Virus record (IMG/VR): IMGVR_UViG_3300021247_000931
Location: 1-55,444 of that record
DNA from: a virus
Length of the DNA stretch: 55,444 bases
Strand: one strand, 5' to 3'
Positions 25,610 through 36,544 of the stretch are shown here, piece by piece. The position numbers and the translations under genes were made by a program. Under the pieces are notes generated by a model. That model was not told the origin of the DNA. It saw only the letters and a program-made list of their open reading frames with translations, and did no database searches. The stretch's first letter is position 1, and each line of letters begins with the position of its first letter.

Positions 25610-26569
25610 TTAGTCCTGAACCGTGGCGATCAGGTAACCCGCATTGGGGTTAATGATCTTCTCGACGCGGTTGGAGCGGACGCGAACGATGTCGCCGCGG
25701 CGCTTCTCATCGCGATAGGTGTCGGTCGTGAAAAGACCACCCTCGCTGTCGGCGTCCCAGATCATGGTGCGGCCGATACCGCCTGCCTTGAAGTCACCAC
25801 CCTGGATGTCAGCAAGCAGCATGTAGCCGTTGCCCCACACGGGCTGGATGTTGGGGGCCTTACCGGCAACCGAGACATCGACCGTCTTGCGGGCGATGAT
25901 GATCTGGCCGATGTTGAAGGCCTCTGCAACCGCCTGGGTGGTGATGTTGGAACCGCCCTGGGTGGTGTTGAGGAAGCCGTAGAGGTAGGTCTGAAGCCTG
26001 CGGCTCCTCTTGATGAGGTTCCAGAGGTGCAGGGAGAGGACGAGCGTGTTGGGCTGCTCTCCGACGTTGTTCATCGCCTCGATGGCGGCGTTGAGGTCGG
26101 CGGGCACGTCCATGGTGTCCAGGTTGGCGTCCGAGTAGGTCGCCGCGGGATTACCCACGTTGAAGGTGTCGGGATCGAGCACCGTGTTGGCCACCTGAAC
26201 CTCATAGTCCAGCATGACCTTGCGCATGCAATCCTTGGCGGTGATCACCTCGGCGTCGAAGAAGTTCTTCATCCGCTTCTTGATCACGTCGTCGATGCGC
26301 TCCTCATGACCGTATTCCTCGGTCTGATAGTTGTCCCACTCGAACGAGATGTTGCTCTCGTTGTAAGTGCCGGACTGATTGCGCTTCTGGCTCTGCTTGC
26401 GCAGGAGGCCACCGGAGGCGATGCGGAACTTGGGATAGCGCCCATACTCCATTTCGCTCTCGTTGACGGGCAGCACAAGCTGTCCGATGAATTGCTCGTC
26501 CTGGTGAACCGCCTCCATAAGGACGGTGGAGAGGTCGATGCGGGGAACTGCGTCGGTCGTGTTATACAT
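25610..26569 (-). CDS. Major capsid protein
   Basis: 319 residues, the shell subunit. Its HK97-type fold is inferred from order (decoration and protease-scaffold genes directly upstream, head-tail joiner downstream) and from sequence: an extended N-arm (RIDLSTVLMEAVHQDEQFIG), an E-loop-like region (KQSQKRNQSGTYNESNISFE), a long spine helix (DDVIKKRMKNFFDAEVITAK, CMRKVMLDYEVQVANTVLD) and A-domain segments (PNTLVLSLHLWNLIKRSRRL, NGYMLLADIQGGDFKAGGIG). No SD precedes the ATG. The leader is AACCCTCAACCGAACACGACC-like, as for other genes here. Confidence 0.85.
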   Translation of the reverse strand: MYNTTDAVPRIDLSTVLMEAVHQDEQFIGQLVLPVNESEMEYGRYPKFRIASGGLLRKQSQKRNQSGTYNESNISFEWDNYQTEEYGHEERIDDVIKKRMKNFFDAEVITAKDCMRKVMLDYEVQVANTVLDPDTFNVGNPAATYSDANLDTMDVPADLNAAIEAMNNVGEQPNTLVLSLHLWNLIKRSRRLQTYLYGFLNTTQGGSNITTQAVAEAFNIGQIIIARKTVDVSVAGKAPNIQPVWGNGYMLLADIQGGDFKAGGIGRTMIWDADSEGGLFTTDTYRDEKRRGDIVRVRSNRVEKIINPNAGYLIATVQD

Positions 26570-26977: not shown

Positions 26978-28255
26978 TTAGGCGCGCTGGGATTCGAGCC
27001 AGTCGCGGTGAAGCTCGGGGTTGGTCTTGATGACCGACTCGAAGGCCTTGGCGCGGGACTTGCCGCTCTTCTCGATCTCGGAGACCTTCTGCTCAAACTC
27101 ATGCACCTTCCCGTCCTTGGAGGTCACGGGGGAGATGGTGCCGTCGGCGGAGAAGGAGAGGACGCGGGTGCCCGTCTTGATCGCGTGGAGGAGAACCTCG
27201 TTGCGGGACTTGAGCGCGGCGACCTCGGACTTGAGCGAGGCATTCTCGTCGCTGAAGGCCTTAAGGTTGCCCTCGATGGTCTCGAAGTGATGGGCGACCT
27301 CGGCCTCTTCGGCGGCGATGTCATCGCGGGTGAGGCGAGCCTGGAGCATGCGAACCTCGCGGGTCAGGGCCGAAAGGGCCGTGCCAGCCTCGGCTCCGGC
27401 AGGAGCGGCTTCACCCTCGGCGGGAGCGCCTTCGGTGGATCCTTCACCCTCTCCGTCACCGGCGGCGTGTTCGGCCTGGAGGGCGACGATGCCAGCGGCA
27501 TCCTCTTCGGTGATCTCACCAGCGGCGACGAGATCGGCAATCTGCTCCTCGCTCAGGGAGAGAATCTCCTCGAGGGAGGGGCCTTCATCGTGAGAGGCGG
27601 CCTCCTGGATTTCGGCGATCTGCTGCCCCTGGGCGGCGACCGTCTCGGTGAGTGCGTTGACCGCAGCCAGGAGATCCGTCAGGGTGGGCTCCGGTGCGCT
27701 ATTGGGTGTGTTTTTGGGGTCCATAGAGGTTTCGTCATTTGCACGGCCGTCAACTAACTCGGGCAATTTGGCCTCAAGGAGGCCGCTCGGATTAGCAGCG
27801 GGGGTTGCGACTAAATCGACGGAAATCAGGGAATCACACCGGGCAGCCATGAGTTTCTTGCCCTCCTTTTCGATCGGCTCGTCATCGCCCAGGAAAGCGG
27901 CCGAGAGTCCGACGTTTTTGGGCATGCGCTCGGCAAGCTCCAGGGCCTGGTCGTATTGGGAGTGGCTCTTGAGCAGGTGCCAGTCGGCGCGGAGTTGATT
28001 CCCGTCGATCTGGAAGTTTTTGAGGTAACCATTCACGGCATCAGCGCCGGTCTTGTGGTTCCATTTGGTGGGAACGGTGCCCATCTTCTCGGCGCACTCC
28101 TTGATCTGGCGGAGCGTCGTCATATCGACTTCCAGATCGTGGCCTCGGGCGGTGATTCCAGCCGTGATGACCGAGACCCCGCGGATAATGCCGTTGGAGC
28201 GATCCACCTGGACTCCGGAGAGTCCCAAACCATTGTCAAAAAGATGCTGCTTCAT
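26978..28255 (-). CDS. Prohead protease fused to scaffolding domain
   Basis: 425 residues. The N-terminal ~165 look like a capsid-maturation serine protease: H67 in TKWNHKTGADAVNGYLKNFQ, S118 in KNVGLSAAFLG, and the strand SLISVDLVATPAANPSGLLE near 142-161. The remainder is an acidic, Ala/Glu-rich coiled coil (LLAAVNALTETVAAQGQQIA, NLKAFSDENASLKSEVAALK) ending in a basic tail (HRDWLESQRA), as in scaffolds that nucleate the shell. Such fusions are known in several phages. The protein would line the procapsid, cleave itself and other internal proteins, and leave. Confidence 0.85.
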   Translation of the reverse strand: MKQHLFDNGLGLSGVQVDRSNGIIRGVSVITAGITARGHDLEVDMTTLRQIKECAEKMGTVPTKWNHKTGADAVNGYLKNFQIDGNQLRADWHLLKSHSQYDQALELAERMPKNVGLSAAFLGDDEPIEKEGKKLMAARCDSLISVDLVATPAANPSGLLEAKLPELVDGRANDETSMDPKNTPNSAPEPTLTDLLAAVNALTETVAAQGQQIAEIQEAASHDEGPSLEEILSLSEEQIADLVAAGEITEEDAAGIVALQAEHAAGDGEGEGSTEGAPAEGEAAPAGAEAGTALSALTREVRMLQARLTRDDIAAEEAEVAHHFETIEGNLKAFSDENASLKSEVAALKSRNEVLLHAIKTGTRVLSFSADGTISPVTSKDGKVHEFEQKVSEIEKSGKSRAKAFESVIKTNPELHRDWLESQRA

Positions 28256-28308: not shown

Positions 28309-29127
28309 CTAAAGGGTTGTTCCGGCGCTACCCACGCCACCGCCGGGAGCCTCCTCGCCAACCGGGGCTTTGATGCCCCGGGTACGATACGCGCGGATCT
28401 TGCGAGAGAGCTGGCTCTCATTGCCGCCGACACGCTCATCGATGGCAGCGACATTACGCTCAGGATCCTGCGTCCCGTAGGCCGCATGCATGGCATCGGG
28501 CGTCAGGCCGCTCTCGATATTAGGCTCATACTGGCCGTTGGCATTGCGCGGGCGGCTATCCAGCTCGCGAAGCCGCGAGGAGCGGGAGGCAAGAGAGCGT
28601 ATCCTGGCTGAAAAATCCTTCTCAGGGGAGCAGCAACCAATCCGCTGACCGATCTTGTAGGATCGAACCTTGGACTGCTCGGCAAGGGTGCCGATCGTCT
28701 GGAGGATCCCTTGGTCGCTCACAGTGGAAGCGATCTCATTGATCTCGTGCTGGATTTGCTGCTCTCGATCCTGCAGCTCCGCAAAAAAGTCGGAATTGGA
28801 CATTCCCTGTAGGAATGCCATGGCCGACTGCTGAACATCCGATAGATTGAGCGCGACACCCTCACCGATCATCAGTTCAACGAGCCTGTCATAAGCAGCC
28901 TCATAGGCGCCATAAAGCTCCCCCAGGAACTCGTGATCCTCGAAGAACGATGGGCCGCTGGTCAGATTGTGGGCGTTGTGGGCATAGAGCTGCAACCCTC
29001 GGAATAGGGCCGCCAGTTCTGTTATTGCCTCGATGGGCGCAGATCGCTCCATCGACTCCTCTTCAGCGAACGCACGAAGCCGAGCGGATCGAATGGCAAA
29101 CTCGCGGAGGCGGGGGAGGAAGCTCAT
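28309..29127 (-). CDS. Dps/ferritin-like protein with terminal LREFA motifs
   Basis: 272 residues. Residues ~35-165 resemble the Dps four-helix bundle: GLQLYAHNAHNLTSGPSFFE followed by DHEFLGELYGAYEAAYDRLV and ELMIGEGVAL lines up with the Dps helix A/B region (LQLY...AHW, then HEMLDGF...ID...ER...GGVAL). Candidate metal ligands are H53, H65, D80 and E84. Family members bind iron and protect or bind DNA. The N terminus (FLPRLREFAIRSARLRAFAE) and a mid segment (DFSARIRSLASRSSRLRELD) carry a motif shared with adjacent head proteins. The ATG overlaps the upstream TAA (TAATG). Location in the head module suggests packaging in the virion (inference). Confidence 0.65.
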   Translation of the reverse strand: MSFLPRLREFAIRSARLRAFAEEESMERSAPIEAITELAALFRGLQLYAHNAHNLTSGPSFFEDHEFLGELYGAYEAAYDRLVELMIGEGVALNLSDVQQSAMAFLQGMSNSDFFAELQDREQQIQHEINEIASTVSDQGILQTIGTLAEQSKVRSYKIGQRIGCCSPEKDFSARIRSLASRSSRLRELDSRPRNANGQYEPNIESGLTPDAMHAAYGTQDPERNVAAIDERVGGNESQLSRKIRAYRTRGIKAPVGEEAPGGGVGSAGTTL

Positions 29128-30923
29128 TATCGCATGCGGGAGAGGAATCCACGAATCACAGCACCAATACCGCCCACCTTGGATCCAGCGCGGGAAAGCA
29201 CTGAAGCCTCCTCGCCTGCCTTGGCAGCCCCTGCAAACTTGGCCCCATCGTGGGAAAGAGGGGAGTTGGTGGCCGCCGTAGCGACCGATCCGGCTCCATC
29301 ACTTGTGGAGGGAGGGTTGAAGGAGCTGGTGAAGCCACCCTTGAAGTCATTGGCCGCAGCACCATAGGCCTGGCCAACGGAGGCACCATTCTGGCCATAC
29401 TTCTTCATGACGGCCTGATGGCCCAGCACGGCACCAGCACCAAGACCGGCACCCACGGCGGCATCTCGGATGGGATGGCCGTTCTCATCGAGCTTTTCGT
29501 CGAAAGACTTGAGTGCGGAGGAGGCGGCGGAGAGCTCGCGGAGGCGATCCTTGGCGGAGAGTGGGATGTAGGCCATCGTTCCATCGCCACCATCATAGAC
29601 TCGGTGCGACGAGCGTGCGGCGGCATGCTTGGGTAGCTTGGGGACCAAGGGATTGATGGAATCGATATGCGTTTTTAGGATATTCCCATTTTTCCTGATA
29701 CCATCGATACCTGCACCAATCAGGGGAGCAATTCCAAGAGAAGGAAGAGCGAGCGGCGCTGAGATATACAGTCCCGCATGGCGCTTGAGGTGGCCTTTCA
29801 CGCCAGGCTCTTTGTAAATCGTAGTTTTGTCCCCTTCTTTCATGGCGTATCCACCAGCCAGCTCCTTCAGGCGATCCTTGGCGGAGAGATGGCGATCGCG
29901 AATTTCTTTGGCACGGGGATCGCGGATTCCTTTGATGTATCCGGCAGTTTCCCCGGCGATCGCTCCCCCGAGGCCACCAACAACAGCAGGGAACGCCCGT
30001 CCGCCCTTTTTGCCAAGAAGGGCGCCAATTCCAGCACCGGCAGCGCCACCGAGAGCGCCGCCAGCCAGAACATGTTTGGCATCGTGAATGTATCCGTCTT
30101 TGTAGGCCTTGGCCTTCTTGCCCCAAGGGGCGTTGTAAGCGCCGACGTTGGCGGTTCCCAGGACAGCATGGGCCACAGGGCCTGCGGCGAGTTCACGCAG
30201 GCGATCCTTGGCGGAGAAACGCTTGGCGGCCACGCGCTTGATGGCGGCGAGGGCATCGGATCCAGCGACCTTGTAAGCACCACCAACAGAGCGCTTTACT
30301 TCCCGAGGCTTGATAAAGCGACCGTTCTCGCGGCGAAGCGTCTCGGTGCCATACTTCTTCATAATGCCGACATGACCTGCGCCAAGACCGGCGCCCACCA
30401 GCGCAGCGCCACCTGCCGCCTCGGCGATGCCGGGGCCGTTGTAGTGGTTCTCAACTCCCGTGAAGGTGCCATCCTTGTCGAAGGCGGGCTCATTTTTGGT
30501 CAGAAGACCGAATTCCTTGTTTTTGAACCGCTCCTCATCACGGCCCTTGATTCTTGATCCAGCGAAAGCGCCGCCAATTCCTCCGACAATAGCCGCACGC
30601 TTTCCGATATGATGTCCGGTCGCTAATCCGGTAGCCCCGGCAACTGCAGCGGTATTGTTTGGGATTCCGTGAGCCTTCATGGTGGCGCGAATGGGCTTTA
30701 AGCCTTTCACTAAAGAACGTGGCGCGGATTTCCCTAGAGCCAGCATGCTTCCGCCAACAAGCGCACCACCTCCGACGGCGCCCAGGCCATATCCCGCGAG
30801 AGCACCACTAATTGCGCTTCGGGTCACCGGAGCAACCGTAGGGTATTCTTTTTCCTTGGTGGCCAGTTCCTTGATCTGGCAGGACTTTTCAGAGAGTTCG
30901 CGGAGGCGGGAGAGAGGAGTCAT
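29127..30923 (-). CDS. Glycine-zipper internal head protein with SAKDRLRELA repeats
   Basis: 598 residues, family not recognised. It has repeated Gly/Ala-rich hydrophobic stretches (GALAGYGLGAVGGGALVGGS, VLAGGALGGAAGAGIGALLG, VVGGLGGAIAGETAGYIKG), like glycine-zipper domains that insert into membranes. Between them recur FSAKDRLRELAAG, LSAKDRLKELAGG and LSAKDRLRELSAA, and the N terminus MTPLSRLRELSEKSCQIKEL is a variant. Another repeat is AGLGAG-x(n)-MKKYG (two copies). Such composition is typical of internal or ejection proteins that cross the host membrane. It lies between the Dps-like and HExxH proteins. Confidence 0.7.
   Translation of the reverse strand: MTPLSRLRELSEKSCQIKELATKEKEYPTVAPVTRSAISGALAGYGLGAVGGGALVGGSMLALGKSAPRSLVKGLKPIRATMKAHGIPNNTAAVAGATGLATGHHIGKRAAIVGGIGGAFAGSRIKGRDEERFKNKEFGLLTKNEPAFDKDGTFTGVENHYNGPGIAEAAGGAALVGAGLGAGHVGIMKKYGTETLRRENGRFIKPREVKRSVGGAYKVAGSDALAAIKRVAAKRFSAKDRLRELAAGPVAHAVLGTANVGAYNAPWGKKAKAYKDGYIHDAKHVLAGGALGGAAGAGIGALLGKKGGRAFPAVVGGLGGAIAGETAGYIKGIRDPRAKEIRDRHLSAKDRLKELAGGYAMKEGDKTTIYKEPGVKGHLKRHAGLYISAPLALPSLGIAPLIGAGIDGIRKNGNILKTHIDSINPLVPKLPKHAAARSSHRVYDGGDGTMAYIPLSAKDRLRELSAASSALKSFDEKLDENGHPIRDAAVGAGLGAGAVLGHQAVMKKYGQNGASVGQAYGAAANDFKGGFTSSFNPPSTSDGAGSVATAATNSPLSHDGAKFAGAAKAGEEASVLSRAGSKVGGIGAVIRGFLSRMR
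29532..30217. repeat. Dispersed 30-bp repeat encoding SAKDRLRELA
   Basis: Three copies of a segment close to CAGGCGATCCTTGGCGGAGA occur at 29532-29561, 29859-29889 and 30189-30217, spaced about 330 bases. They encode SAKDRL(R/K)EL(A/S). Conservation of both DNA and protein between otherwise different segments suggests duplicated units, each a tag plus a glycine-zipper stretch. Confidence 0.8.
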
Positions 30924-30986
30924 GGGTAGAAAGGTTCATTTCCCCTCCACTCGTCAACTTGAGCCCCCGACTCTCGACTCTCGACT

Positions 30987-31181
30987 TTAGCCCTTCCCCT
31001 GTTCCTGATTTCCTAAGTTCCTGATTTGTTTTCTGAACGACTTGACCTGGTGGACGAGTCGTTTCAGATCCTTGGTCGTCACGCGCAGCCGAAAAGGTAG
31101 CTTCACTCCCGGGAGCCAGACCACAAGCGACAGCTCGTATTTGATCTCACGGGGGCGCGAGGCGGCCTTGGCCGGGATCAT
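30987..31181 (-). CDS. Small basic protein of the head module, unknown
   Basis: 64 residues, strongly basic at the C terminus (TTKDLKRLVHQVKSFRKQIR). Middle segment IKYELSLVVWLPGVKLPFRL is strand-like. ATG lies 3 bases after the stop of the large HExxH gene, which supports translation. The last bases of the gene lie in a short sequence repeat (GACTCTCGACTCTCGACTTT) shared with another intergenic site. A nucleic-acid-binding role is possible from the charge only. Confidence 0.5.
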   Translation of the reverse strand: MIPAKAASRPREIKYELSLVVWLPGVKLPFRLRVTTKDLKRLVHQVKSFRKQIRNLGNQEQGKG

Positions 31182-31184
31182 GGA

Positions 31185-34100
31185 TCAGGCGATTTTCTTC
31201 GGGAACTTGATGATGTTCGAGACGGGAGCAGCCGCGGCTTTCTTGGGGAAAACGGAAAGACCCGAGAGCTTTCTCGCAGCGACCGCTCCGCCAGCCACAC
31301 CGAGGAGGCCTGTTCCGACGATGGCCCCCTTGAGCAGGGCCTCGCGGTTTTCCTTCTTCTCATGCCACTCTTTCTGACGGCGGAAGCGGGGACGGCTACC
31401 AGGAGCGAAAACCCGGGCACTCTTGCCGCGGGGATCCCGGACATCCCATCCGGCCAGGGTCGCATCGAGGTCGAACTGCTTGAGCGTGCGGCGGAGCTTC
31501 GCCCCGAAGAGGCTGACTCCGTGCTTCTGGGTAAAGGCATCTGCCTTTCGGAGATGGGGCATGATGTTTTTCTGGCCAAATCCGGTCTTGGTTGCCACGG
31601 CCGCGCCACCAAGGAGGGCGGCACCCGCGGCGGCGGATCCAACGGCGCGGCGAAACCATGCCTTTTCCCATTCGCGCTTCTGGGGCCTGCCAGCCTGATC
31701 AATGCGGCGGCCGCGTCCGGCGAGGACATCACCCGTGTCGCGGAGCAGCCCGGTGCCACGGCCACCCCAGCGGTTGATCGCCTTGCCCTTGTTGTAGAAT
31801 CCGCGGATCGTCTGAACTCCGGTCATGGAGACAGGGCTTCCCGAAGCATCGACCACATCGCCATGGAGGCCATAAGCGGCACGCGTCGGGCTGACAAAAC
31901 GCTGCGAGTCCCGCTCGCGGGGCTGATTGGAGTAGCCAAATTCCTTAAGGAGGCCGCGAATCTTTGTGGAAAGGTTTTTCCGACCCTCCTGACGGGCAGC
32001 AATCTGGGAGTTGTTGATGGCATCTACGAGCATTCCTTCATCGGCCCCCTGATGGGCACCATAGAGAGCTCCAGCTCCAGCGCCGATTGCAGCGGCAGTG
32101 GGAGAACCAGCCGTCTTAATGGCATGCAGAGGGCGCCAGGTCTTGGCTCCTTTGGTGAAAGCCGAGGTTGCCTTGGCCCCGAGAGCGCCCTTCTTGAGCG
32201 CAACGGCCCCCAGCCCGCCGAGGGCGGCCCCGGCAAGGGCACCGCCCACGGCTGCGCGCTTGGTAAAGGCAGCCCTGTCGTTGGGATCAGGGTTTCCGAG
32301 CACTTTGTTTCCAATCGCAGTCCCGCCACCAGCCAGCGCACCCATCGCGCCGGCACCGATCCCTGCGGCATGCAGGGCGGATTTGAGGGATTTCCCTCGG
32401 GTCAATAGAGCAGTGCCGCCGCCCAGCAGGGCCCCAGAGGCTGCCCCTGAAAGGGCGGCCTTGATCTCCTGCTTGCGAGGACTCTCGGAAGGAAGGGAAA
32501 ATTCTTTCTTCTCCTTGCGTCCAGCCGCATAGCCAACCAGGGCTCCACCGGCACCCGCAACGGCCAGAGCAGGAGTTAGGCGCCTTGGCGCCTTGGGAGT
32601 GAGGCCAGCCTTCTTGAGGGCAGCAGCGGAGGCTTCCTTGCGGACAGCATTGTAGAGAGGGCGAAGCCTTTTGCCATGCGTGGCTAGAACTTTTCTTAAA
32701 ACGGGAACCTGACGATGAGCCGCACCCAAAGAAACGCCAGCGTCGGTGGCGTAACGCTCCACATCGCGCCTAATCACCGAATCATAAGCCGCTGGATGGA
32801 CAAATTGCGACATGGGAGTGGCTCCCGGAACTTTGCGAATGTAATCCCCACGGGAAAACAGCTTGGCCTTCTTGGCTAGGATCGCACCGGCGGCACCCAC
32901 CCCGGCAAGGGTGGGAAGTGCCTCGGCGCGCTTGGCCCAGCGGGGGCGATCCCCGTAGATGTCGCGATGCTTGTCGGTGATGGCGCGAACGGCGAGGACG
33001 CCACCCATACCGGCTGCGGCACCCAGGCCCGAGCGGACCAGGCGCTGCTTGAGAGTCGATCCCTTGCCGTGAGTAAGCCACCCGGCAGCGGATCCGGCCA
33101 TGGCGGCGTTGTTGATGTTGCGGTCGCGTCGGTCGAGGTCACTCTCCCGCACGGTCTTCACGAATCGATCGTGAGCGGTCTTGCCGGTCAGGGGAACCCC
33201 ATCCTCGTCGGTCTTGAGGGAGAAGCGTTTCATAAGCGGATCCCTGGAAGAGAGGCGGAGGATTTTTCCAATCCATCCCTTGCGGAGATTTCCGGCAGCC
33301 GATTCCCCGTGAGCGAGCACGGCACGGATGGCGCGGGCCGTAGGCGTAACCTCATCGGCCGCCTTTCCCACCTTGAGCCCTGCATGGAGAACCCCCGCTC
33401 CTGCAGCAAGCGCTCCGGCACCTACGGCCCCATCACGCAGCTTCTCGGAACCGGAGTGCTTTTCAGCAAATTCCTTGTTGGGATTGGCAGCCTTCCAAAT
33501 TGAGTGGGTGCGCTTGACGGCGGCTTTCTCACCCTTGGTGAGATTGGGATTGCGGGCGAGATCGCGGAAAGAGGCATCTCCCGCCTTGTAGCGGGCCTTG
33601 GCGGCAACGGTGGCTGCCTTTGCCCCCTCGGCGGAGCGGGCTTCCCCGGCGACACGGGCATTGCGACGCGCAGCCACGATGCGGTTGGCGGTGGAGCGCT
33701 GGATGGCGACTTTCTCAGCCGCACCGACAGTGCCACGGAGTCCACGACCGGCCAGGGCGAGGCCCCCGGCGAGACCCGCCGAGAGGATTCCAGTCTTGAG
33801 CAGCTCATGACGCTCCTCTTCGGGAGTCTGCGAAAATTCCTTCACCTTCTGCAGGAGCGCGGAGCAGTTCCAGCGCTTGAGGGCGGCACCCTTGGGGGTG
33901 AGCTTGCCATCCTTGGAGGTCGGACCCTTGACGCCGCTCATGCGGGCGCAGAAGGATTCGCGCCTCTTGGCCGACTTGCTCCCCGGCTTCAGCTCGGATG
34001 GCTTCTTGGTGACGGGCCGCTTCAGGTTCGATCCGTTCTCGCGGTTGTATTTCTCCCTGAAGGAATCATTAAGTCCCCCGGTGCGGGCATGGCGCTTGGA

Positions 34101-34814
34101 GTTGTATCGCAGAAACGGCTTTTCAAATTCCTTCATGCCCTTTTCCCAAGCGGTCAACTCTTGAAACCATTTGGTGATCCCGCCTTTTTCAACTTGATAC
34201 TTGGTGCTTCGGTAGGCCCCCCGAAGTGTTCTCTTGAGCCGATCGAGGAGGGGGCGGTCTTTGTTCGGGGAATTTTTCCCGAGGAACTGGTTTTTGTGAG
34301 CGGCTAGTTCTTCCGCAAAAACCGATGCAATACTGCCAGGAGGACCGCCCCTCCTTTGCTGAAGAACGCTATGAGTGATTTCGTGCTTCCGGATGCCCCG
34401 TTGGGCATTGTGGACTAAAATTCCATAGTCGGAATCCCCAGCCGACGATCCCGAAGGTCGCGGAATGACATTTCGCAGGGAGTGCTCGGGAGGGATGGAG
34501 ATAAGCCCTCCTTCACGAAGCCGCCGCTCGGCGAGGCCTCTCCTCTGCTCGAAGGTGTCAGAGGGATGCTTGGGAACGATGGCTTCTGCCCGCTCTTTGT
34601 AAATACTATCAATGGATTTGGGAGGATCCTGTTGAGCATCCTTTTCATAAGCGGAACGAAGAGTGGTTGGGTGGGCATAAGATCCAAGAGGCTCGGACGG
34701 CGGAGGTGGGCGGCGATCGATCGCGGGACGAATGTACCCCTCCGGGATCATCCGGGCAAATTCTTTTAGTCGCCCCAGAGCCTCCAGGACATGCTCAAGA
34801 GAGGAGGCGCTCAT
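31185..34814 (-). CDS. Giant internal virion protein: HExxH domain, DUF6321-like domain, glycine zippers
   Basis: 1209 residues. Residues 144-148 are HEITH inside GIRKHEITHSVLQQRRGG, with E168/E169 (FAEELAAH) 20 residues later, the layout of gluzincin-type zinc metallopeptidases. Near 245-318 is a Cys-containing domain (SKSAKRRESFCARMSGVKGP, LTPKGAALKRWNC) resembling one I recall as DUF6321 in other phages. The remaining ~870 residues alternate basic helices with Gly/Ala-rich hydrophobic stretches (AALSGAASGALLGGGTALLT, GAVGAGALAAGAGVLHAG). LKEF-type motifs recur: LGRLKEFARM at the N terminus, LLQKVKEFSQ, LLKEFGYSNQ. It overlaps the portal gene by ATGA. An ejected protein acting in the host envelope or on capsid assembly is plausible. 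Confidence 0.7.
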   Translation of the reverse strand: MSASSLEHVLEALGRLKEFARMIPEGYIRPAIDRRPPPPSEPLGSYAHPTTLRSAYEKDAQQDPPKSIDSIYKERAEAIVPKHPSDTFEQRRGLAERRLREGGLISIPPEHSLRNVIPRPSGSSAGDSDYGILVHNAQRGIRKHEITHSVLQQRRGGPPGSIASVFAEELAAHKNQFLGKNSPNKDRPLLDRLKRTLRGAYRSTKYQVEKGGITKWFQELTAWEKGMKEFEKPFLRYNSKRHARTGGLNDSFREKYNRENGSNLKRPVTKKPSELKPGSKSAKRRESFCARMSGVKGPTSKDGKLTPKGAALKRWNCSALLQKVKEFSQTPEEERHELLKTGILSAGLAGGLALAGRGLRGTVGAAEKVAIQRSTANRIVAARRNARVAGEARSAEGAKAATVAAKARYKAGDASFRDLARNPNLTKGEKAAVKRTHSIWKAANPNKEFAEKHSGSEKLRDGAVGAGALAAGAGVLHAGLKVGKAADEVTPTARAIRAVLAHGESAAGNLRKGWIGKILRLSSRDPLMKRFSLKTDEDGVPLTGKTAHDRFVKTVRESDLDRRDRNINNAAMAGSAAGWLTHGKGSTLKQRLVRSGLGAAAGMGGVLAVRAITDKHRDIYGDRPRWAKRAEALPTLAGVGAAGAILAKKAKLFSRGDYIRKVPGATPMSQFVHPAAYDSVIRRDVERYATDAGVSLGAAHRQVPVLRKVLATHGKRLRPLYNAVRKEASAAALKKAGLTPKAPRRLTPALAVAGAGGALVGYAAGRKEKKEFSLPSESPRKQEIKAALSGAASGALLGGGTALLTRGKSLKSALHAAGIGAGAMGALAGGGTAIGNKVLGNPDPNDRAAFTKRAAVGGALAGAALGGLGAVALKKGALGAKATSAFTKGAKTWRPLHAIKTAGSPTAAAIGAGAGALYGAHQGADEGMLVDAINNSQIAARQEGRKNLSTKIRGLLKEFGYSNQPRERDSQRFVSPTRAAYGLHGDVVDASGSPVSMTGVQTIRGFYNKGKAINRWGGRGTGLLRDTGDVLAGRGRRIDQAGRPQKREWEKAWFRRAVGSAAAGAALLGGAAVATKTGFGQKNIMPHLRKADAFTQKHGVSLFGAKLRRTLKQFDLDATLAGWDVRDPRGKSARVFAPGSRPRFRRQKEWHEKKENREALLKGAIVGTGLLGVAGGAVAARKLSGLSVFPKKAAAAPVSNIIKFPKKIA

Positions 34815-36544
34815 TCTTCAGAGTTGGTTGGAGGATTCTCGGGAGGGGTGGAGGCATCAGGCCTCGGAGCCGGGCGCGGCACCATCAGCTCGGCATCCTG
34901 CGGGGCTATTCCGTAGAGGGTGACCAGCGTGGCCACTGCGGCCTTGCGATCCATGGTCCCCTCCCCTGCCTGCTTGAGGACTTCGAGCAGAGGCTTGGTG
35001 TCTGCCCCTTGAGGGACAAGCCCCTGGGGCGGAGGTGAAGGAGGTGTATTGATAGCGGCCAGCGTCTGTGTCGGGTTGGTAAGGCGGGCGGTAATCAGCT
35101 CGATCGGAACCTGAGTCTCGGCGGCTAGGCCCTGATAGAACTTCACCTCGCTCGCAGCACGGCGGGCGACATCCTCAAAATTGCCGCCGTTGTCGCTGAT
35201 CATGTCGCTGACCGTAATGACTCCCGCATTAAGAAGCGCAAGCTTGGCCTGCACGTCGTTGCCGTAGTCGCCGGTAAGCGTGGCACCGAATCCCCAGCGT
35301 CCCTGCCTCCAGTTGGGGTGGAATCCGAGTTGTCCGGTCGCAATGGCGCGGGAAAGCACCCGGTCACGCACTGGATTGAGAGCCTGGGCGACAAGGAGCT
35401 TCTGCAGGCGGGCGATGGCACGGGTGGCCTGGGCAATCTCGACGCGGCCGGTATGACCGGAAAGGGCGCTCATGTCGTAGAGGAATCCATACGGCATGTT
35501 GAGCGGCTGGCAGATCGCCCGAACCGTGGCCGAGTAGAGAGCCATGAAGGCGCCCGAGGGACGGGTCGTTCCCGGGGCAAACTGGATCTTCTCACCCTGG
35601 ACAAGCCGGAGAACCTTGCCTGCCTTCATGGAGATCTCCGAGGGACGGCTTGCGCCGGAGGATCCACCACCAGCAGTGGCGTCGGAGGTATTCCAGGCGC
35701 TGTCGTTGCCCGGCTTGTAGGGATCGTCGGTGTAGATCATGCCTGCATGGCCGACCTGCCACTTGGCGGCCTGCATCTCAGCCGAAGCAATCTCATAGAG
35801 GTCTCTGGCGGGGGCCAGGGCTGCCGCGAGGGCGCTCACGCCCCGGTATTGATCAACCCTCCAAGGGTCGAAGATGTGCAGGAAGCTATCTGCAGGAACC
35901 TCATGTTCAAAGGTGACATTGGAGGTGATACGATCGCGCTTGTAGATTGCGTAGGAGAGGACACGGCCCACCTCGTCGATATTGACGCCGCCGATGCAGA
36001 GAGGATTGCCCGCGTCGGCGGGATTGAGGACGTTGCCGATGCGGTCGGCCTCGATCGGCTGGATGCGGATCTGGAATTCCCCCGCCTCCTCGACATCGAC
36101 CATGTTCCACCCGTGATCTCCATCCACGAGCATGGCCGTCTCGGCCATGCGCAAGAGCTGGCCGAGTTGATGGCGGCCGGTCACATCGCACCGCTCGCCC
36201 CACTCGCGCATGAAGGCCTGATACTCCCCGTCGGCCACCTTGTCGCCCGTGGAGGCGATGTAGAGGATGTCGTCGGTGGCATACTGGACGATCCGGGAGA
36301 CCATTCCCTGGAGAATCCCGAAATTGCGGTGTAGATCCCGGGCATCCCAGAGCAGCTCGATGCGGTCGCGCCCCATGCGCCAGCTCTCCGAGGAGGCGTT
36401 CTTCATGCGCCCCCCGGATCCGCCGCGGCGGCGTCCAGGGTTGGCAGCATCATGGGAAAAATACTTCAGGCGGTCGCGCGCGATGGCGCGGTGGAGCGCC
36501 CGCTCGGGGGCGATGGAGGCGATGGTGCGTTCGAGCAGGTTCAT
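34811..36544 (-). CDS. Portal protein (lambda gpB-like)
   Basis: 577 residues, the dodecameric vertex ring through which DNA enters and leaves. Recognisable lambda-type portal segments are RRRGGSGGRMKNASSESWRM, ARDLHRNFGILQGMVSRIVQ, ETAMLVDGDHGWNMVDVEEA, FLHIFDPWRVDQYRGVSALA (the conserved H-x-F-x-P-x-R-x-x-Q-x-RG-S region) and PYGFLYDMSALSGHTGRVEI. The C terminus is Pro-rich and probably disordered. The N terminus (ALHRAIARDRLKYFSHDAAN) includes a DRLKYFS stretch reminiscent of the SAKDRLKELA motif of its neighbours. Last-but-one gene of the late block before the control region. Confidence 0.93.
   Translation of the reverse strand: MNLLERTIASIAPERALHRAIARDRLKYFSHDAANPGRRRGGSGGRMKNASSESWRMGRDRIELLWDARDLHRNFGILQGMVSRIVQYATDDILYIASTGDKVADGEYQAFMREWGERCDVTGRHQLGQLLRMAETAMLVDGDHGWNMVDVEEAGEFQIRIQPIEADRIGNVLNPADAGNPLCIGGVNIDEVGRVLSYAIYKRDRITSNVTFEHEVPADSFLHIFDPWRVDQYRGVSALAAALAPARDLYEIASAEMQAAKWQVGHAGMIYTDDPYKPGNDSAWNTSDATAGGGSSGASRPSEISMKAGKVLRLVQGEKIQFAPGTTRPSGAFMALYSATVRAICQPLNMPYGFLYDMSALSGHTGRVEIAQATRAIARLQKLLVAQALNPVRDRVLSRAIATGQLGFHPNWRQGRWGFGATLTGDYGNDVQAKLALLNAGVITVSDMISDNGGNFEDVARRAASEVKFYQGLAAETQVPIELITARLTNPTQTLAAINTPPSPPPQGLVPQGADTKPLLEVLKQAGEGTMDRKAAVATLVTLYGIAPQDAELMVPRPAPRPDASTPPENPPTNSEE

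Follow-up and report, generated by a model that had tools for sequence, protein, structure and literature searches.

The head-gene cluster and its tagged proteins

The window, that is, the whole 55,444-nt stretch of DNA analysed here (IMG/VR virus record IMGVR_UViG_3300021247_000931), carries a head-gene cluster on its minus strand. The genes are read in the order portal, 1209-aa protein, 64-aa protein, 598-aa protein, 272-aa Dps-like protein, 425-aa protein, decoration protein candidate and major capsid protein. Profile matches place the portal (34811–36544) in the lambda family (PF05136), and the major capsid protein (25610–26569) corresponds to phrog_1005. All coordinates given below for genes and tags are on the minus strand.

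The 425-aa protein (26978–28255) looks like a T4 gp21/herpesvirus-type prohead protease fused to a coiled-coil scaffold. Its AlphaFold2 model (mean pLDDT 69) has a protease fold followed by long helices, and the top Foldseek matches were the KSHV protease and T4 gp21 (probability 0.99–1.00, albeit with E values of only ~4e-3). Residues H39, H67 and S118 were invariant in 19 protease sequences and are probably catalytic.

None of the annotated phages had DNA similar to the window, a tblastn search of cultured phages with the 425-aa protease gave no matches, and the only match to the capsid protein among cultured phages was KS10, at 24% identity. The 598-aa protein, used as a query in IMG/VR, found no relatives. 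Relatives were gathered from IMG/VR with the capsid and protease proteins, and 19 further contigs were read whole and analysed together with the window. The protease is also encoded in two MAG contigs, one from Spartobacteria and one from Akkermansiaceae, both Verrucomicrobiota. The hosts of this family of uncultured phages are Verrucomicrobiota bacteria.

A short sequence, here called the tag, recurs in three of the head-cluster proteins. The 272-aa protein (28309–29127) starts with a doublet, RLREFA at residues 6–11 (29095–29112) and RLRAFA at residues 16–21 (29065–29082), 10 residues after the first. A Dps-like domain (approximately residues 34–146) lies between this doublet and two further tags at 172–190: FSARIRSLAS (residues 172–181, 28585–28614), C-terminal to the domain, and RLRELD (residues 185–190, 28558–28575), immediately ahead of a DSRPRNANGQ module; in relatives, stand-alone proteins start with this module. 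The Dps/ferritin-like matches were weak but mutually consistent (phrog_3636, 5.9e-7; PF00210, 2.3e-3; H. pylori NAP, 7.8e-4). As the AlphaFold model of this protein had a pLDDT of 42, the domain limits were taken from the profile matches.

The glycine-zipper-rich 598-aa protein (29127–30923) consists of modules separated by tags. It has a double tag, LSRLRELSEKSCQIKELA, at residues 4–21 (30861–30914; core from residue 6), a weak tag, KNKEFG, at 134–139 (30507–30524), FSAKDRLRELAAG (FSAKDRLRELA) at 236–248 (30180–30218), LSAKDRLKELAGG (LSAKDRLKELA) at 346–358 (29850–29888) and a second double tag, LSAKDRLRELSAASSALKSFD (LSAKDRLRELS), at 455–475 (29499–29561).

The 1209-aa protein (31185–34814) is multidomain, with DUF6321, a HEITH stretch and glycine zippers. 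EALGRLKEFA lies at residues 11–20 (34755–34784; core from residue 15). The DUF6321 domain (residues 243–315) is bracketed by the weak tag EKGMKEFEKPF on its N-terminal side (residues 224–234, 34113–34145) and by ALLQKVKEFS (residues 319–328, 33831–33860; KVKEFS at 323) directly C-terminal to it. Two weak tags, NPNKEFAE (residues 444–451, 33462–33485) and EKKEFSLP (residues 768–775, 32490–32513), are followed by LSTKIRGLLKEFGY at residues 948–961 (31932–31973), and the LLKEFGY copy was confirmed in the translation. All the motif copies cited in the sequence-only reading that preceded this work are present in the translations of the open reading frames 28309–29127, 29127–30923 and 31185–34814.

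The portal contains a weaker, tag-like form, RDRLKYFS, at residues 23–30 (36455–36478; RLKYFS at 25–30), whose counterparts in the portals of relatives are RLKMFGYDAA and KLTLFGYDAA. The HEITH stretch (34371–34385, residues 144–148 of the 1209-aa protein; RKHEITHSVLQQ...AEELAAHK) was spotted by eye as zincin metallopeptidase-like; the relative L002 has two copies, one HEITP and the other HEIVH. DUF6321 is found in the window and in L002, and InPase (PF18823), a domain typical of polyvalent proteins, in the homologues of the 1209-aa protein in L002 and G008. DUF6321 modules also occur, as hypothetical proteins, in at least 71 phage records, mostly of cyanophages and Pelagibacter phages.

A recurrent tag restricted to the head cluster

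Searching the whole gene set of the window for a strict core, R[LI][RK]E[FL][AS], returned six copies, confined to the 272-, 598- and 1209-aa proteins, whose genes all lie in the stretch from the portal to the protease-scaffold gene. Twelve close relatives, defined as genomes with a major capsid protein at least 60% identical, contained 45 copies, every one in the head-gene cluster. Proteins from portal to protease held 38 of these in 35.8 kaa, compared to 7 in 207 kaa elsewhere, and these 7 were all in genes immediately upstream of the portal. When the module proteins were shuffled, the mean was 0.1 copies.

A 14-residue profile gave a similar picture. It was trained each time without the genome under test, and its threshold allowed approximately one hit per genome by chance. 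In 72.8 kaa of head-cluster protein it found 125 tags; the other 162.6 kaa yielded 16, no more than chance would give. Back-translated SAKLRLRELA, used for an exact search of 2.9 million virus contigs, matched 15 stretches. These lie in 13 contigs, all from this group: nine were relatives already known and the other four carry the group's portal and neighbouring head genes. Operon neighbours that resemble intracellular enzymes (metallophosphoesterases, an acetyltransferase) had no tag. The tag is real and recurrent. The earlier description, in which capsid-module proteins that otherwise differ have a tag in common, is well supported by the core counts, the profile scan and the exact-tag search. 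That reading had also asked whether the motif occurs only beside protease-scaffold genes; among the relatives it is found in the head cluster only.

The motif is longer than first stated, reaches other head genes in relatives and is often a 10-residue doublet. The full tag is [LF]-S-A-K-x-R-L-[RK]-E-[LF]-[ASD], and the consensus from unique copies is [LFM]-S-A-K-[LD]-R-L-[RK]-E-[LF]-[ASD]. The S-A-K upstream of the core is conserved although copies were picked without it. Choosing in reverse, by the prefix [LFMY]S[AST][KR], showed that [LIV][KRH]x[FL] followed in 40 of 53 cases in the module, compared to 1 of 62 elsewhere. Paired tags are spaced by exactly 10 residues (for example LRELAARSEQLKEFA), and the Glu is not constant in either half of the doublet. 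L-x-E is present in 27 of 40 full tags and absent from the other 13. Judged by its residue pattern, the tag is a short amphipathic stretch that is probably helical.

Genomes carry between 4 and 18 tags. Most tags are internal (73 of 92), 16 lie within 25 residues of the N-terminus, where 4.9 were expected, and three are C-terminal.

Module borders and tags of distant lineages

Tags mark the borders of modules. They lie at the ends of unrelated modules or where two such modules meet (Dps-like, DUF6321, DUF5872, glycine-zipper and RPRN), and module fusions, fissions and one deletion coincide with them. The deletion involves the 598-aa protein, whose 289-aa counterpart in the close relative L002 is homologous over residues 95–246 and then 456–576, in one frame; the difference is a tag-to-tag segment, with FSAKDRLRELAAG as its left and LSAKDRLRELSAASSALKSFD as its right border. 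Stand-alone homologues start where the tag of the fused form ends: MxDSRPRN corresponds to RLREL|DSRPRN, to RLRQF|DSRPRN and, in a distant lineage, to MIEF|SDPRPRN. Some stand-alone proteins retain an N-terminal tag of their own (MNLKSRLKELAAK..., MNIRLKLHELAAK...), and one has a tag at its C-terminus (...SFKERLKELAMRK, directly before the stop).

Could the tag be a functionless by-product of gene duplication or of a spreading DNA repeat? Some arrays do contain duplicated modules (RGDYAIPALGKMLRD), and the window and L002 are separated by a deletion or insertion from tag to tag. However, tags precede unrelated modules, and identical tag residues are encoded by different codons in 52–60% of comparisons. 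These two observations largely refute an origin by duplication or as a DNA repeat, and we give the by-product explanation very little credence. Since the copies differ in their codons, it is the amino-acid sequence of the tag that is under selection; the tag is no DNA repeat.

An amphipathic helix might also act after ejection, by binding membrane or DNA or by bundling the injected proteins into coiled coils, and have no part in head assembly. The basic amphipathic pattern would suit such a role, and glycine-zipper segments abound in many of the tagged proteins. Tags are however also attached to soluble modules (Dps-like, DUF6321, DUF5872), and the sharp consensus and fixed spacing go beyond what a membrane helix needs. 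We consider this explanation quite improbable.

The strict core was absent from eight genomes whose protease is ~40% identical. Five of the eight have a different tag, with the heart L-[RTA]-P-G-M-[IV]-x-F, ahead of the same RPRN module. This distant tag is restricted to the head cluster with one exception, which arose with the shortest search pattern, and GMIAF or GMVAF is about as frequent in it as GMIEF. Another distant genome has F-x-T-P-A repeats. The element common to the lineages is a hydrophobic residue and, after it, F or L with a small residue next to it.

The SALRPGMIEFA form is carried by G014 (L100–L103), G017, G019, G023 and G024. A third tag-like repeat, [KR]xFxTPA or KEFSTPAS, occurs in the homologue of the 1209-aa protein in G016 (L104–L107), L046 and L062. 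In L093, L088 and L094 a translated simple interspersed repeat (‘NHRGHREHGG’, ‘HGGHGEHGG’) lies beside the tags of several head proteins, which gives the impression that the borders of modules had taken up a DNA repeat.

Probable capsid targeting and possible protease cleavage

What might the tag do? We think it probable, from its sequence and distribution, that the motif is a capsid-targeting tag that loads internal proteins into the head and works like that of T4. The phage would attach the tag to modules of internal, ejected proteins, and the tagged proteins would be captured inside the prohead ahead of DNA packaging, most likely by the protease-scaffold core. The tag would serve many times in each genome, including in the interior of multidomain ‘polyvalent’ proteins and at their C-terminal ends, and some copies may additionally be cut by the adjoining protease. 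Here we infer the targeting role, the scaffold as reader of the tag and the presence of the tagged proteins in the virion.

The best-studied comparison is the T4 targeting sequence, in which residues 4 and 7 matter mainly for targeting, and residues 8 and 10 for processing (PMC9026906). In the T4 record, IPII and IPIII start with MKTYQEFIAE and IPI with MKTFKEF. T4 and the window group both have a short tag common to otherwise unrelated internal proteins (IPI, IPII and IPIII in T4) and both encode a protease with the gp21 fold. Hydrophobic-x-E-F is common to the two tags, and T4 residues 4 and 7 correspond to constant positions of the tag described here. The T4 sequence, however, is a single N-terminal copy of ~10 residues that gp21 removes after I-x-E, whereas the tag here is often doubled, mostly internal and inconstant in L-x-E, and contains nothing that corresponds to the T4 cut site. 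T4 internal proteins scored with the tag profile were not significant, so that the likeness is one of a four-residue pattern only. By this analogy, T4 offers a functional parallel, not a family to which the tag belongs.

A second comparison is DarB of P1, a 250-kDa internal virion protein with an N-terminal targeting signal in its first 30 residues; the P1 Dar proteins share no common consensus (PMC9024508). The DarB signal likewise brings an internal protein of large size into the head, but a clear consensus across many predicted cargo proteins is a feature of the phages described here and not of P1. The P1 and T4 signals are both N-terminal, in contrast to the predominantly internal tags of this group.

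The sequence-only reading had offered two explanations, capsid targeting and a T4-type L-x-E maturation site. Of these, targeting fits better. Prohead protease cleavage at the motif, either C-terminal to L-x-E or at the bond that joins F/L to the small residue, would free the modules of a polyprotein in the head. The predicted gp21/herpesvirus fold of the adjoining protease is consistent with this, as T4 gp21 cuts after L/I-x-E (PMC9026906), and so are the L-x-E in about two thirds of the full tags, the position of the tags at module borders and the start of stand-alone homologues at the residue that follows the tag in fused forms (RLREL|DSRPRN against MxDSRPRN). Known prohead-protease motifs (T4 L/I-x-E, phiKZ S/A-x-E) are also repeated in internal head proteins. 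These motifs, however, are three residues long with a constant final Glu, while the conserved stretch here covers at least 11 residues and its Glu is replaceable; 13 of 40 tags lack L-x-E, and the distant tag often has Ala in place of Glu. In addition, a cut at the extreme N- or C-terminal tags of stand-alone proteins would trim only a few residues. Because a third of the tags have no L-x-E and stand-alone proteins keep their terminal tags, capsid targeting is favoured over a pure L-x-E site, and we regard cleavage as the sole role as unlikely.

Both roles might be combined in a T4-like signal: the tag would first bring its protein to the core, and the protease would afterwards cut the tag or remove it. 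The T4 sequence does have both roles, with separate residues for each (PMC9026906), and doublets spaced by 10 residues could give each role one half. Yet no I/L-x-E is found at the T4 distance after the targeting-like half, and the Glu is inconstant in both halves. This combination seems less likely still than cleavage.

Encapsulin cargo peptides are mostly C-terminal and bind the encapsulin shell. The sequence-only reading had likened the motif to these peptides, and the two do share the proposal of a short tag on a ferritin-like protein. The idea of targeting stands, but encapsulin itself serves as an analogy only: the tags are mostly N-terminal or internal, with 3 of 92 C-terminal, and the head genes (portal, protease-scaffold, phage capsid protein) are those of an ordinary tailed-phage head.

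If the targeting reading holds, what would recognize the tag? In several relatives a scaffold helix, LSALQKQV[KR]ELSAR, resembles the tag (P 0.004–0.01); the corresponding helix of the window, LSALTREVRMLQARL (27332–27376), has P 0.16. Mimicry of the scaffold by the tag is at best suggestive on this evidence. A more ambitious and tentative proposal, which we hold to be possible though rather doubtful, is that the arrays of tags and modules follow one consensus loading code. Each tag would be an independent docking helix that mimics a scaffold segment, recombination at tags would bring in new cargo, and the lineages would have ‘dialects’ (SAKLRLRELA, SALRPGMIEFA), each matched to its own protease-scaffold.

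The gene position of the tagged proteins suggests that they are packaged in the virion and injected. They resemble polyvalent proteins (Iyer et al. 2017, PMC5512222), described in passages of that paper as large and multidomain, encoded in the head cluster and bearing InPase and metallopeptidase-like domains, with packaging and injection as their predicted fate; those passages mention no common packaging tag. Head loading of cargo proteins is known in few phages, namely T4 and, for one protein, P1. The tag system of the window group is real and unusually clear. If its targeting role is true, a clear consensus tag would allow one to predict from sequence which polyvalent proteins (ejected, probably anti-defence) are loaded and would aid the annotation of such proteins in uncultured phages. 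Foreign proteins could then also be packed into phage heads by means of a short tag.

Tags are also accompanied by HExxH-like stretches (HEIVH, HEHGH and HEAGH) in L082 (4756–6692) and L088 (1431–3257), just upstream of the portal.
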